This document shows positions 33,656 to 40,598 of a stretch of 64,000 nt of DNA, one piece after another. Position 1 is the stretch's first letter. The number at the start of each line of letters is the position of its first letter. Source of the stretch: Halosimplex halophilum (lineage in GTDB: Archaea > Halobacteriota > Halobacteria > Halobacteriales > Haloarculaceae); NCBI RefSeq assembly GCF_004698125.1, contig NZ_SRHV01000005.1, forward strand, positions 248,001 through 312,000, given 5' to 3'. Position numbers and translations under genes: made by a program. Below the pieces are notes generated by a model that saw nothing but the letters and a program-made list of their open reading frames with translations, did no database searches and had not been told where the DNA came from.

Positions 33656-34393
33656 TCAGTCGCCGCCGGCCGCGTCCGGCCGGTCGGGGTCGATCTCCGG
33701 TCGCACGGCGTCGAGCAGTTCGTCGCCGGCGTCGTCGACGTCGATCGCGTCGACGTTGGCGAACAGGAAGCCGGCGAACCCGACGCGGATCAGCGCGCCG
33801 ACGTACTCCCCGAGGACGCCGGAGACGTAGGTGTCGAAGACGCCCGCGACGCCGAGGACCGCGTAGGCGATCAGCATCCCGATCAGGAACAGGAGGAGGT
33901 TCCGGGCCTTCCAGTGGAGGAGCCGCTGGCGGTCGGGGAGTCGCCCGGCGCGCTCCCAGACCGGGCCGAACAGCAGGTACGCCAGCAGGAGGTGGCCGGC
34001 GACGACGGTCGCGATCCCGACGAGGCCGACGACGCCGCCGAGGACCGAGGCGGCGTTGAACGCGACGACCTGGACCACGGGGACGGCCACGAAGACCCCG
34101 ACCGTCCGGCGCGACTCGTTGGCGAGCAGCGCCGCGACCCCCCACAGCAGCGGGTAGGCGATCAGGTCGTCCAGCACGCTCGGGAGGTCGAGCGAGCCCC
34201 CGCCGACGGCGACGACGCCGACGCCGACCAGCGACAGCGCGGTCGTCACCGCCGAGACGCCGACGGCGGCCACCGCGGGGTAACAGTACGTCCGGCGCCG
34301 CTCGGGGATCCGGGTCAACCAGGCGACCAGGCCGACCGCGGCCAGGGCGTAGACGGCCGCGGCGACCGCGTAGACCGTCGACAGCTCAATCAT
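33656..34393 (-). CDS. Rhodopsin-fold 7-TM protein lacking the retinal lysine
   Basis: The protein has 245 residues and seven transmembrane helices (about 3-27, 38-62, 71-91, 97-119, 121-143, 162-184, 187-213), laid out like sensory rhodopsin II (SRII). Compared from memory with Natronomonas SRII, helix C keeps the Asp (D75 in [11 protein letters not shown]) and helix F keeps ARNL. Helix G reads [16 protein letters not shown], so the Schiff-base Lys is Arg203. The aromatic retinal-pocket residues of helix F are also gone (I171, L174, I175, A178). Tyr197 matches SRII Tyr199, which contacts the transducer. The start overlaps the transducer gene by 8 bp, the arrangement of htrII-sopII. It cannot hold retinal by the usual bond; its stimulus is unknown. 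Confidence 0.75.
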
Positions 34394-35987
34394 CGTCGCC
34401 CCCCGCGACCGGCCGCGCGGCCGGGGCCGGCCCGTCGCCGGCCGGGTCGTCCCCCCGCGTCTCGAACTCGGCGAGGCGGTCGAGCAGCGCGTCCGTCCGG
34501 GCGGTGAGGTCGTCGGCGCGCTCGCGCACGTCGGCCATCGTCCCCGCCGTCTCGGCGGCGGTGTCGGCCAGCTCGTGCGAGCGGTCCGCGACGCGGCGGG
34601 CGACCTCGCCGACGGAGTCGACGGTCGCGGCCACCTCCTCGGTCGCGGCGGCGCCGTCGTCGGTGGCGCGGGCGATCTCGCCCATCGCGGCGTCGACGTC
34701 GTCGACGGTGTCGGTCAGCGAGTCGAGCGTCTCGCCGACGCCGGTGACCGTGTCGACGCTCGCGCCGATCCGGTCGCGCGTCCGGTCCATCTCGTCGGTC
34801 ACGTCGTCGACGTCGGCCCGCGCGCCCTCGACGATGGCCTCGATCTCGTCGATGGCGTCCTGGGTCTCCTCGGCGAGCTGTTTCACCTCGTCGGCGACGA
34901 CGGCGAACCCGTCGCCGCCCGCGTCGGCGTGGGAGGCCTCGATGTTGGCGTTCAGCGCGAGGATGTTCGTCTGCTCGGCGATGTCGTCGATGATCCCCGT
35001 CGTCGCCGCCACCTCGTCCATCCGGTCGTCGAGCTCGGTGACCAGCCGGTCGAGCTCGTCGACCGTCGTCTCGACGGTCCGGATCGCCTCGATGGCCTCG
35101 TCGGCGCGGTCGGCCCCGGTCGCGCCCACCTCGGAGGCCTCGGTGGCCTGGTCGGCGATCTCGTCGGTCGTGGCCGCGACCTCCTCGATGGTCGCGGAGA
35201 GGTCGTCGACCTCCGCGACAGCGCTCTCCAGCTGCTCGGCCTGCTCCTCCAGGTCGGTCGCCAGCTCGCGGATGTCCTCGGCGAGCCGCTCGTTGAGCCG
35301 CTGGACCTCCGCGGCCTCCTCGGCGACGGCGCCGCTCGATTCCTCGACGCGCTCGGCGAACGTCCGGATCTCCTCGACGGTGCCGGAGAGGCCGGCGGCC
35401 ATCTCGTCGTAGGCGACGGCGATCCGGTCGACGGCGTCGACCTCGGTGTCCGTCGCGAGGTCGCGCGTGAAGTCGCCCTCGGCGGCCGCGGTCATCGCGT
35501 CGCCGATCCGCTCGGCGTGGTCGAGCAGCTCCTCGTTGAACGCCTCGGCCTGCTCGGTCGCGGCTTCGGCCTCCTCCCGGGCCTGTTCGGCCTCGCGGCG
35601 GGCCCGCTCGGACTCGTCGAACGCCTCGTCGAGCGACCGGCGCATGCTGTCGAAGGCGTCGGCCAGCCGGCCGAACTCGTCGGCGCGGTCGACGTCGGCC
35701 GAGGCGTCGAGGTCCCCCGCCTCGACGGCCGCCGCGGCGCCGTTCAGCCGCCGGAGCGCGACCGCCGCGTTCCCGCCCAGCACGATCGCCAGCAGTCCGA
35801 GGTTCAACACGACGACGAACAGCGTCCCCGCGATGCCGGCCAGCCCCGCGCCGCCCTCGGGCGCGGCGTCGACGTACACCGCAAAGAGCGCCCCGAGTCC
35901 GACCGTCGCCGCCGCCGTCAGCGCCACCGACGCGGCGATGCGCCGGCTGTAGTGTTCGAAGACCGCCTTTCCTGTCGCGATAGCCAT
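34386..35987 (-). CDS. HtrII-like methyl-accepting transducer
   Basis: The protein has 533 residues from the ATG at 35987 ([13 protein letters not shown]). Two transmembrane helices (about 16-40 and 51-71) are separated by only about ten residues, so there is no extracellular ligand domain; this is how HtrII is built. A HAMP domain follows ([18 protein letters not shown]), then a long coiled coil, and the CheA/CheW-binding hairpin tip at about 332-375 ([20 protein letters not shown]). TM2 contains [14 protein letters not shown] with Asn62 at the place of HtrII Asn74, which hydrogen-bonds the rhodopsin Tyr. The gene overlaps the rhodopsin-fold gene by 8 bp, so a receptor-transducer complex feeding the chemotaxis kinase is inferred. 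Confidence 0.88.
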
Positions 35988-36174: not shown

Positions 36175-38463
36175 TCAGTCGTCGCCCAGCACGCCCTCGG
36201 CGACGGCCATGTCGTCGACGCTGGGGTCGTCCTCGGTCCCGCGGAGGACGAACCGCTTGCGCACCAGGTCGGCGGCGTACAGCGCCGTCCCGGCGATGAT
36301 CATGGTGTCGCCGGGCAGCCGCGCCCAGAACAGCGTCTGGACGATCGGCCGCTCGTAGAACGCGAGGCTGCGGCCGGCGTCGTAGCTGGCGGTGAAGATG
36401 GCCTCCAGCTGGAGGAACCCGACGGGCAGGACGGAGACGAACACCATCAGCGCGAGGCCGACGTTCCACAGCCAGAACGCGCCGCGCAGCCAGGAGCCGT
36501 CCCAGCGCTCGGGCCGGATGGCGATCCGGAGCATGTAGGTGACCATCCCCAGCGCGAGGAAGCCGAAGGCGCCGAACATCGCGGCGTGGGCGTGGCCGAC
36601 GGTGAGGTAGGTGCCGTGCTCGTAGTAGTTGATCAGCGGGAGGTTGATGAAGAAGCCGAGCACGCCGGCGCCGACGAAGTTCCAGAACCCGCTGGCGACG
36701 ATGAACATGAAGGGGAGCCGGTAGGGGAACGGGTCGCTCCCGGAGTGCATCGCGCGGTACTGGCCGATAGCCTCGTAGAGGATGAAGACGAGCGGGAGCA
36801 GCTCCAGCGTGGAGAAGACGCTCCCGATGGGCACCCACAGGTCGGGCATGCCGATCCACCAGTAGTGATGCGAGACGCCGATGACGCCGGTCGACATCAC
36901 CAAAAGCGCCTGGAGCATGACCGCCTTCTCGGCGCTGCGCCGTTTGAGGAGGTTCATCGACACCAGGGTCAGGCCGACGATGGCGACGATGAAGAACTCG
37001 AAGGCGCCCTCGACCCACATGTGGACGACCCACCAGCGCCAGAACTCCGTGACGGCGATGTTGGTCTCGGGGGTGAACAGGAACCCGGCGGTAAAGAGCA
37101 GGGCGATGGAGCCGCCGGCGTAGAGGATCATGTGCGCGAGCCCGTAGACCGGTTCGCTGTCGAGCATGGGCTTGAGCCCGCGAACGGAGAGGACGGCCCA
37201 GGCGAGGAACCCGGCGAGCAGCCCCGCCTGCCAGACCTTCCCCACTTCGAGGTACTCCAGACCCTCGTTGCCGATCAGCCACCACAGCGCGCCGTCGAGG
37301 TAGCCCTGCGCGCCGAGCCAGATGCCCGCCATGCCGCCGACGGTGACGACGACGACCGCGCCGAGCAGACCGTTGACGAACGTCGACTGGCGCTTCGGCT
37401 CGTGGCCGGTCAGCAGCGGCGGGAGGAACAGGCCGGCGCCCAGCCACGTCGCGGCGATCCAGAGGACCCCCAGGTCGATGTGCCAGGTCTTGGCGAGGGC
37501 GAAGGGGAGCAACTGGAGGATGTGGACGCCGAATATCTCCTCGATCCCGAAGAAGCCGGCGCGCTCGATGTAGAAGTGCGCGAGCAGGCCCCCGAGCATG
37601 ACCTGCGCCAGAAAGAGCCCGGCGGCGACCGGGATGAATCGCAGCGCGGCCCGCTGGCTCGGGAAGACGCTCACGTCGCCGGGTTCGGGGACGGAGATGC
37701 CCTCGGCGGAGGGCTCGGGGAGCCGGACCGACTTGTAGAGCCAGATGCCGGCGCCGGCGGCGCCGACCAGGAGGACCATGGCGATGACGCTCCAGGTCAT
37801 CGCGGCGGCGGTGGCGTCGTTGCCGGCGGCGGGCTGGTAGGGCCAGTCGTTCGTGTAGGAGTGGTCGCCCGCCGGCCGGTCGGTGTGGGAGAACCAGGCC
37901 GTCCACAGCGCGAAGTCCGCGAACTGCCGGGCCTCGGTCTCGTCGTCGATCATGTCGACGGGGACCCCGCGCTCGTGGTCGCCCTCGTGGTAGCGCTCGA
38001 CGTACTCCTCGCGGACCTGCTCGTGGGCGTACACCTCGGCGGCGGAGTACTCGATGGCGCCGCCCCCGTAGGACTCGTCGAGGTCCTGCTCGACGTCGTC
38101 GCCGACGGCGGCCTGTTCGGCGGAGTCGAGTTCGCCGTACTCGGCGCCGTAGCGCTCGCGGGCGTAGTACTCGCGCATGTGCTCGACCTTCAGGTCGAGC
38201 GTGTCCGCGGTGTAGTCGGCGCCGTAGTAGGCGCCGTTGCCGAGTATCGACCCGTGGTTCATCAGCCCGTCGCGCTGGAAGGCCTTCTTGCCCTCGCGGA
38301 TGTCCGTCCCGGTCATCACCGTCTCGCCGTCGGGCCCGACGACCTCCTCGGGGATCGGCGGCGCCTCCTGGTAGGCCAGCCAGGCGCCGCCGGCCATCAC
38401 CACCAGGTTGAACACGAAGACCGCTGCCAGTATCTTCGCGATCGTCGCGCGCTTGACTTCCAT
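36175..38463 (-). CDS. norB: Quinol-dependent nitric oxide reductase
   Basis: The protein has 762 residues from the ATG at 38463 ([10 protein letters not shown]). It has the fused qNOR layout: an N-terminal helix and a large extracytoplasmic domain (about 30-220) replacing the NorC subunit, followed by about 12 to 13 transmembrane helices with heme and non-heme-iron ligands in [38 protein letters not shown] and [19 protein letters not shown]. It reduces NO to N2O with electrons from quinol. The soluble domain lacks a CxxCH heme-c site, as expected for qNOR. It lies 187 bp upstream of, and on the same strand as, the HtrII-like transducer. Confidence 0.92.
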
Positions 38464-38622
38464 GTGCGGGCCTCTGTCGCCCGCACTTACCAAACCCCGC
38501 CCCGCTCCCGGTGACCGGAACGCCATGCGAACATCTTCGCCCGACCCGGGTCGCTATCGTCCGTCGATCCGGACGCAATCGTGCGAAAAGCGGTGTTGGT
38601 TCCCCGTCGTCCGGCGGCCGTT

Positions 38623-38764
38623 TCAGAGGTCGGCCACGTCCTCGATGGCGTCGGTGAGCGCCCGGATGCTCTCCAGGTCGTGCTCACCCATGTGGCCGAT
38701 GCGGAATGTTTTCTCGCCGAGCTGGGAGCCGTAGCCGTTCGAGAACACGAAGTCGTACTCCTCG
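38623..38764 (-). pseudogene. Duplicated 3' fragment of the class V aminotransferase gene
   Basis: These 142 bases repeat bases 39477-39618, the 3' end of the aminotransferase gene including its stop, with two mismatches. The frame still encodes the last 47 residues (EEYDFVFSNGYGSQLG to AIEDVADL). Upstream (38765 on) similarity ends abruptly. It has no start and is not a functional gene. Together with the intact copy it flanks the vapBC remnant. Confidence 0.9.
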
Positions 38765-38830
38765 AAGACGGCACCGGCCCGGAGTCGAACCGCCGGCAGG
38801 TTTTTGCGAACGGCAGTGTAACCGATACAC

Positions 38831-39476: not shown

Positions 39477-40598
39477 TCAGAGGTCGGCCACGTCCTCGAT
39501 GGCGTCAGTGAGCGCCCGGATGCTTTCCAGGTCGTGCTCACCCATGTGGCCGATGCGGAATGTTTTCTCGCCGAGCTGGGAGCCGTAGCCGTTCGAGAAC
39601 ACGAAGTCGTACTCCTCGGACACCTGTTCGATGGTCGCGGCCACGTCGATGCCCTGGGTGTTCTCGATGCAGGAGACGGTCTGGGAACGGTAGCCTTCCT
39701 CGGCGAAGAGATCGAAGTGTTCGCGGGCCCAGTCGTGGACGTACTCGGTCATCTCCTGGTGGCGCTGGTCGCGGGCGCGGTGGCCCTCCTCCAGCATGTG
39801 TTTCATCTGCTTGCGGTAGGCGAGCATGACCGGGATGGCGGGGGTGGAGTGGGTCTGACCCTTCCGGTCGTAGTAGTCCAGCGTGCGCTGGAAGCCGCCG
39901 TACCACGACGCCGAGTCCTTGTCGAGTTCCCGCTCGTAGGCCTCGTCGCTGACGACGCAGACTGCGAGGCCGGGGGGCATCGCGAACGCCTTCTGCGTCG
40001 AGGCGAAGATCACGTCGATGTCGTGTTCGTCGATGTCGACGTAGTCGCCGCCCAGCGCGGAGACGGCGTCGACGACGAAGTAGGTGTCCGGGTACTCGGC
40101 GACCACGTCGCCGATCTCCTCGATGGGGTTGCGGACGCCCGTCGAGGACTCGTTCATCACCGTGGCGACCACGTCGTAGTGTTTGTCGCTCTCCTCCAGT
40201 TCCGCGCGGATGTCCTCGGGCTTGATGGCCTCGCCCCAGTCGTACTCCAGGCGGTCGACGTCCTTGCCGAGGCGCTCGGCGACGTTGGCGTGGCGCTCGC
40301 TGAAGCTCCCGCAGGTGGGGACGAGGATGTTCTCGTCGACGAGGTTCAGCGTCGAGGCCTCCCAGAACTCGGTGCCGGAGGCGGTGAGGATGACGACCTC
40401 GTTGTCGGTGCCGAGGAACTCCTTGGTGTCCTCGACGATGGTCGTGTAGAGGTCGGTCATCCGGTCCATCCGGTGGCCGAACATCGGCTGGGCCATCTCG
40501 TCGATGACGTCCTCGCGCACTTCGGTCGGGCCGGGGATGTACAGCGTCTTGTCGTCGTAGTCGCCTGTGTATTCCTGTTTCTTGGGCACGGAAACCAC
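39477..40598 (-). CDS. Class V aminotransferase (alanine-glyoxylate/serine-pyruvate type)
   Basis: The protein has 373 residues. It is a fold-type I PLP enzyme of the alanine-glyoxylate/serine-pyruvate aminotransferase family: LYIPGPTEV at the start, LTASGTEFWEAS, FVVDAVSALGGD with the PLP-nitrogen Asp, and FASTQKAFAMPPG with the Schiff-base lysine. The start is GTG (40598), and a second GTG at 40589 would give the more usual PKKQEY beginning. It likely transfers amino groups to glyoxylate or pyruvate; the exact pair is not resolved. Its last 142 bp are duplicated at 38623-38764 beyond the vapBC remnant. Confidence 0.9.
   Translation of the reverse strand: MVSVPKKQEYTGDYDDKTLYIPGPTEVREDVIDEMAQPMFGHRMDRMTDLYTTIVEDTKEFLGTDNEVVILTASGTEFWEASTLNLVDENILVPTCGSFSERHANVAERLGKDVDRLEYDWGEAIKPEDIRAELEESDKHYDVVATVMNESSTGVRNPIEEIGDVVAEYPDTYFVVDAVSALGGDYVDIDEHDIDVIFASTQKAFAMPPGLAVCVVSDEAYERELDKDSASWYGGFQRTLDYYDRKGQTHSTPAIPVMLAYRKQMKHMLEEGHRARDQRHQEMTEYVHDWAREHFDLFAEEGYRSQTVSCIENTQGIDVAATIEQVSEEYDFVFSNGYGSQLGEKTFRIGHMGEHDLESIRALTDAIEDVADL

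Follow-up and report, generated by a model that had tools for sequence, protein, structure and literature searches.

The seven-transmembrane (7-TM) protein and the HtrII-like transducer encoded side by side in the Halosimplex halophilum DNA analysed here (a stretch of 64,000 nucleotides, hereafter the window) probably work together as a retinal-independent taxis receptor made of two proteins. The 7-TM member of the pair is a group A opsin-related protein (ORP) of haloarchaea that has lost the retinal-holding residue of sensory rhodopsin II (SRII) and kept its pairing with a dedicated transducer, and it therefore probably senses something other than light. Both genes lie on the reverse strand, where orp (33656..34393) encodes the 7-TM protein, an opsin-related protein of 245 aa that lacks the retinal lysine, and the transducer gene (34386..35987) a protein of 533 aa with two TM helices, a HAMP domain (residues 77-120) and an MCP signalling domain (293-462), in the transducer-then-opsin order also seen for SRII-HtrII of Natronomonas pharaonis. 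The 8-bp overlap between transducer stop and opsin start that the sequence-only reading had described is correctly placed at 34386..34393 of the same strand; it is identical (-8) in 24 of the 56 paired relatives and likely couples the translation of the two genes. The ATG start of the transducer is supported by the equal length of its relatives' N-termini.

By fold, the 7-TM protein is unambiguously a microbial (type 1) rhodopsin, and by sequence it is SRII-like. Its best matches among solved structures were NpSRII chains (residues 2-217, E 1.5e-6), with rhodopsins making up nine of the 11 matches, and an AlphaFold model made from 23 sequences (mean pLDDT 85.6) compared well with SRII structures 3qap (TM 0.80/0.89) and 1h68 (Z 27.6), though bacteriorhodopsins equal SRII in Z. 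These matches bear out the rhodopsin fold that had been claimed from the letters alone, at an identity of 22-24% to N. pharaonis SRII (PDB 1h2s, 5jje) in structural alignments. The Bac_rhodopsin HMM search suggested in the sequence-only reading gave a divided result: the 7-TM protein sequence alone matched nothing in Pfam or NCBIfam, including PF01036 (Bac_rhodopsin) at its curated cut-off, while PF01036 was matched by four of 23 relatives, of which L052 and L056 exceed that cut-off.

SRII holds its chromophore by a Schiff-base lysine in helix G within an aromatic pocket, and both are absent from the window protein. Alignment confirms the proposed replacement of the lysine, with Arg203 (codon at 33785..33787, reverse strand, by computed position) standing at the site of the retinal lysine, SRII Lys205. 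A displaced retinal lysine in helix G was ruled out because the whole 7-TM protein has a single lysine, K162, located where helix F ends on the cytoplasmic side. The alignment also agrees with the proposed loss of the helix F aromatics, W171, Y174, P175 and W178 of SRII being replaced by Ile, Leu, Ile and Ala, and W76 is replaced by Asp, so that the computed Asp75-Asp76 codons (34166..34171, reverse strand) correspond to the SRII counterion Asp75 and the retinal-pocket Trp76. Tyr at SRII position 199 and Asp in column 189 are retained, and the protein carries Gln at 108 and Ile at 127, two sites at which the clade is mixed (at 108, Met in 27 and Gln in 26).

Analysis of the transducer upheld its earlier description as a protein with a ten-residue loop and no ligand domain: about ten residues separate TM1 from TM2, and a ligand-binding domain is absent. 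The best solved match of its TM-HAMP region is NpHtrII (E 3.9e-14). Asn62 (computed codon 35802..35804, reverse strand) aligns with HtrII Asn74 and is Asn or His in 57/57 group A pairs, and Tyr197 of the opsin (computed codon 33803..33805, reverse strand), the counterpart of the transducer-contacting SRII Tyr199, is invariant in all 60 relatives; both interface residues are thus kept in the window pair. A cognate two-TM HAMP/MCP transducer together with the Tyr199 and Asn74 contact residues is thus common to SRII-HtrII and the window pair.

Relatives were searched for in the family (146 genomes) and the class (391 genomes), using whole-genome searches because a DNA-pattern scan of genome contigs yielded two relatives only, and 60 group A relatives were read as DNA. 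The residue at the lysine site is Arg in 59 of them and Ser in one (L136), and 56 have a transducer gene directly upstream on the same strand, which gives the counts by which the sequence-only reading had proposed to judge the pairing. Among the other four, L101 lies at a contig border, L058 looks like a broken ORP copy with a divergent N-terminal half, and L053 and L056 seem to be true orphan ORPs. Invariant or near-invariant positions comprise K162, R164, N165 and L166 in the cytoplasmic part of helix F, Y197, R203 and N213 in helix G, and Tyr80. An acid is found at 75 or 76 in 57/60 relatives, the exceptions being L106, L058 and L136. L136, the sole relative without the Arg, also lacks both acids, a single case of co-loss that is only suggestive, and L106 retains Arg despite Asn-Asn at 75/76. 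Genome G121 encodes the ORP without adjacent transducer L053 and, about 5 kb from its ORP pair, a second group A-like transducer (L057:945-2753) with no ORP found adjoining. ORP relatives annotated as bacteriorhodopsin are also present on the Halobaculum and Halorussus plasmids NZ_CP081960.1, NZ_CP119990.1 and NZ_CP096660.1.

Phylogenetic analysis with 12 canonical opsins for comparison placed all proteins without the lysine in a single clade (support 100/99) and, likewise at 100/99, group A in one clade that includes the window protein and the damaged copy L058. The tree has several long branches and its bootstrap is not fully settled; shared signatures suggest that this clade is the published group A. 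In a FastTree phylogeny of the transducers, the partners of groups A, B, R2 and H and of the canonical opsins each form one group. Opsin and transducer trees thus split alike, and the two genes were most likely inherited together; the correlation of their distances within group A (r 0.95) is partly species history, and the shared division into groups weighs more as evidence. Apart from group A, we observed a second Arg-bearing ORP clade (100/99; L139:3259-4020, L142:3324-4088, L143:3420-4181, L151:2691-3476, L152:3142-3903 and L155:3286-4050) in which Arg72, Tyr174, an acid at 75 and an aromatic residue at 171 are retained, position 178 is Gly, and the partners are transducers of 750-800 aa with a long N-terminal region; this clade is absent from the main text of PMC4915679. 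Three further ORPs carry His at the retinal-lysine site (L061:7738-8523, L063:7998-8846 and L161:1396-2136), and in L061 and L063 a long transducer lies downstream rather than upstream.

The near-complete genomes G008 and G065 encode a group A pair and CheW, and genome searches found neither a Bac_rhodopsin match nor a Brp/BCD retinal enzyme in them; the lack of canonical opsins and Brp-type enzymes alongside CheW supports retinal-independent signalling. Previous work listed eight species with ORPs but without crtY and brp, detected transcription of eight of nine tested ORPs, and observed no retinal absorbance for the purified ORPs of Halorubrum distributum and Natrialba magadii (PMC4915679). 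Together, G008, G065 and these absorbance-free related proteins favour the proposed loss of light sensing, which for the window protein itself is suggested by its residues. The window genome has three canonical opsins and two BCD matches, so other genes there can do light sensing, and retinal is available, which counts against a retinal-free reading. In G122, the only opsins are two group A ORPs (L052 and L056), one of them with a transducer, no BCD is present and no CheW domain was found; not every pair can therefore act through CheA, and the G122 pair may be a relic or use a different signalling route. G081 was considered as another genome without other opsins, with no BCD above cut-off, and rejected because its one Bac_rhodopsin match is a separate His-type ORP.

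The genomic context names no stimulus. Thirteen relatives share the neighbourhood aminotransferase, transducer, ORP and ligA (DNA ligase), and norB (36175-38526) adjoins the pair only in Halosimplex, with long matches in L036 and L038 and a matched fragment in L037; on these grounds, we rejected the idea that norB ties the pair to nitric oxide or nitrate respiration. Elsewhere in the window, a 147-bp direct repeat (97%) corresponding to the 3' end of a class-V aminotransferase gene (38623-38769 and 39477-39623) flanks a small unit that by eye resembles an antitoxin and PIN-toxin pair. The matching space is short in L036, which suggests an insertion in the lineage of the window.

In SRII-HtrII, the transducer is driven by breakage of the contact between Schiff base and Asp75 together with movement of helix F. 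For the group A pair, we propose that the 7-TM protein would be the sensor and that Arg203 in helix G may form an ion pair with Asp75/Asp76 in helix C that replaces the contact between protonated Schiff base and Asp75, a proposal drawn from conservation and the one co-loss. Such an ion pair would sit in the emptied retinal cavity and hold the transducer off or on; its formation or breakage would be triggered by a non-light stimulus, which could be membrane potential, pH or an ion, or a small molecule in the cavity. The change would shift helices F and G and tilt TM2 of the transducer as in SRII/HtrII, and this tilt would alter CheA activity and hence swimming reversals. We found no stimulus, ligand or behaviour reported in the literature for any haloarchaeal ORP.

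The evolutionary rates of the two genes bear on what else the 7-TM protein might be. With dN/dS of ca. 0.6 against its nearest relatives, compared to ca. 0.3 for the transducer, the opsin is under weaker constraint than its partner, as expected if it were a structural or tuning subunit that senses nothing and stabilises or biases the transducer in mixed Htr arrays; that the transducer alone retains the HAMP and MCP domains would also fit. We nevertheless consider such a role unlikely, given that Arg203 and Tyr80, whose counterpart positions line the retinal site of SRII, and positions in helices F and G are near-invariant over 60 relatives, which together with the near-constant pairing implies more than a passive anchor, and that the transducer itself lacks a sensor domain. 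The same opsin rate, together with the broken copies L058 (its N-terminal half divergent) and L137 (split), could instead mark a light receptor decaying toward loss, but dN/dS stays below 1 in all pairs tried, the same Arg is found in 59/60 relatives and Tyr199 in all, and the ORP-transducer pair is retained in many genera, so that we regard decay as very unlikely.

It is very unlikely that the ORP still senses light through a chromophore that is bound non-covalently or attached elsewhere, an option left open in PMC4915679 and compatible with the intact fold and the capacity of the window genome to make retinal. The pocket aromatics are replaced, the sole lysine lies at the cytoplasmic end of helix F, G008 and G065 lack Brp-type enzymes and canonical opsins, and related ORPs showed no absorbance (PMC4915679).

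A 2016 study of haloarchaeal ORPs had already described the protein class and its Arg subgroup, group A, together with the losses in the pocket, the linkage to a transducer and the hypothesis of a non-light function (Becker et al. 2016, PMC4915679), and the window protein is an additional well-preserved member of that group. Like the published members, it has Arg at the Schiff-base site, the pocket changes W178 to Ala, Y174 to Leu and W76 to Asp, the conserved Y199 and D189, and an adjacent HAMP/MCP transducer. It differs from them by Gln instead of Met at 108 and from most ORPs by Ile instead of Thr/Ser at 127, residues that are typical of published group A members but not strictly defining. 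The main text of that study does not mention Halosimplex. Rh-noK proteins of algae and bacteria and the ORPs of yeasts and other fungi (PMC7714340, PMC10308929) are likewise lysine-less relatives of microbial rhodopsins, but unlike the window protein they are not described there as paired with an MCP transducer, and fungal lysine-less opsins fall outside the haloarchaeal ORP clade (PMC4915679).

New in our analysis are the larger size of the survey, the agreement between opsin and transducer trees, the co-occurrence of Arg and acid, and two additional ORP subgroups, bearing Arg or His at the lysine site, that are absent from the main text of PMC4915679. The locus is a compact test case in that it combines a single sensor gene with a single transducer lacking a sensor domain and has close relatives in other Halosimplex genomes. 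G008 and G065 contain no canonical opsin or Brp-type enzyme that could confuse an assay, and the conserved pairing of Arg and acid makes a specific prediction for mutants. Beyond the two-protein taxis receptor that we favour for this locus, we raise more tentatively the possibility that group A ORPs at large are GPCR-like archaeal receptors for non-light stimuli in which a buried Arg-Asp pair replaces the switch between Schiff base and counterion, which would let a single seven-helix scaffold with a single transducer interface serve different stimuli.
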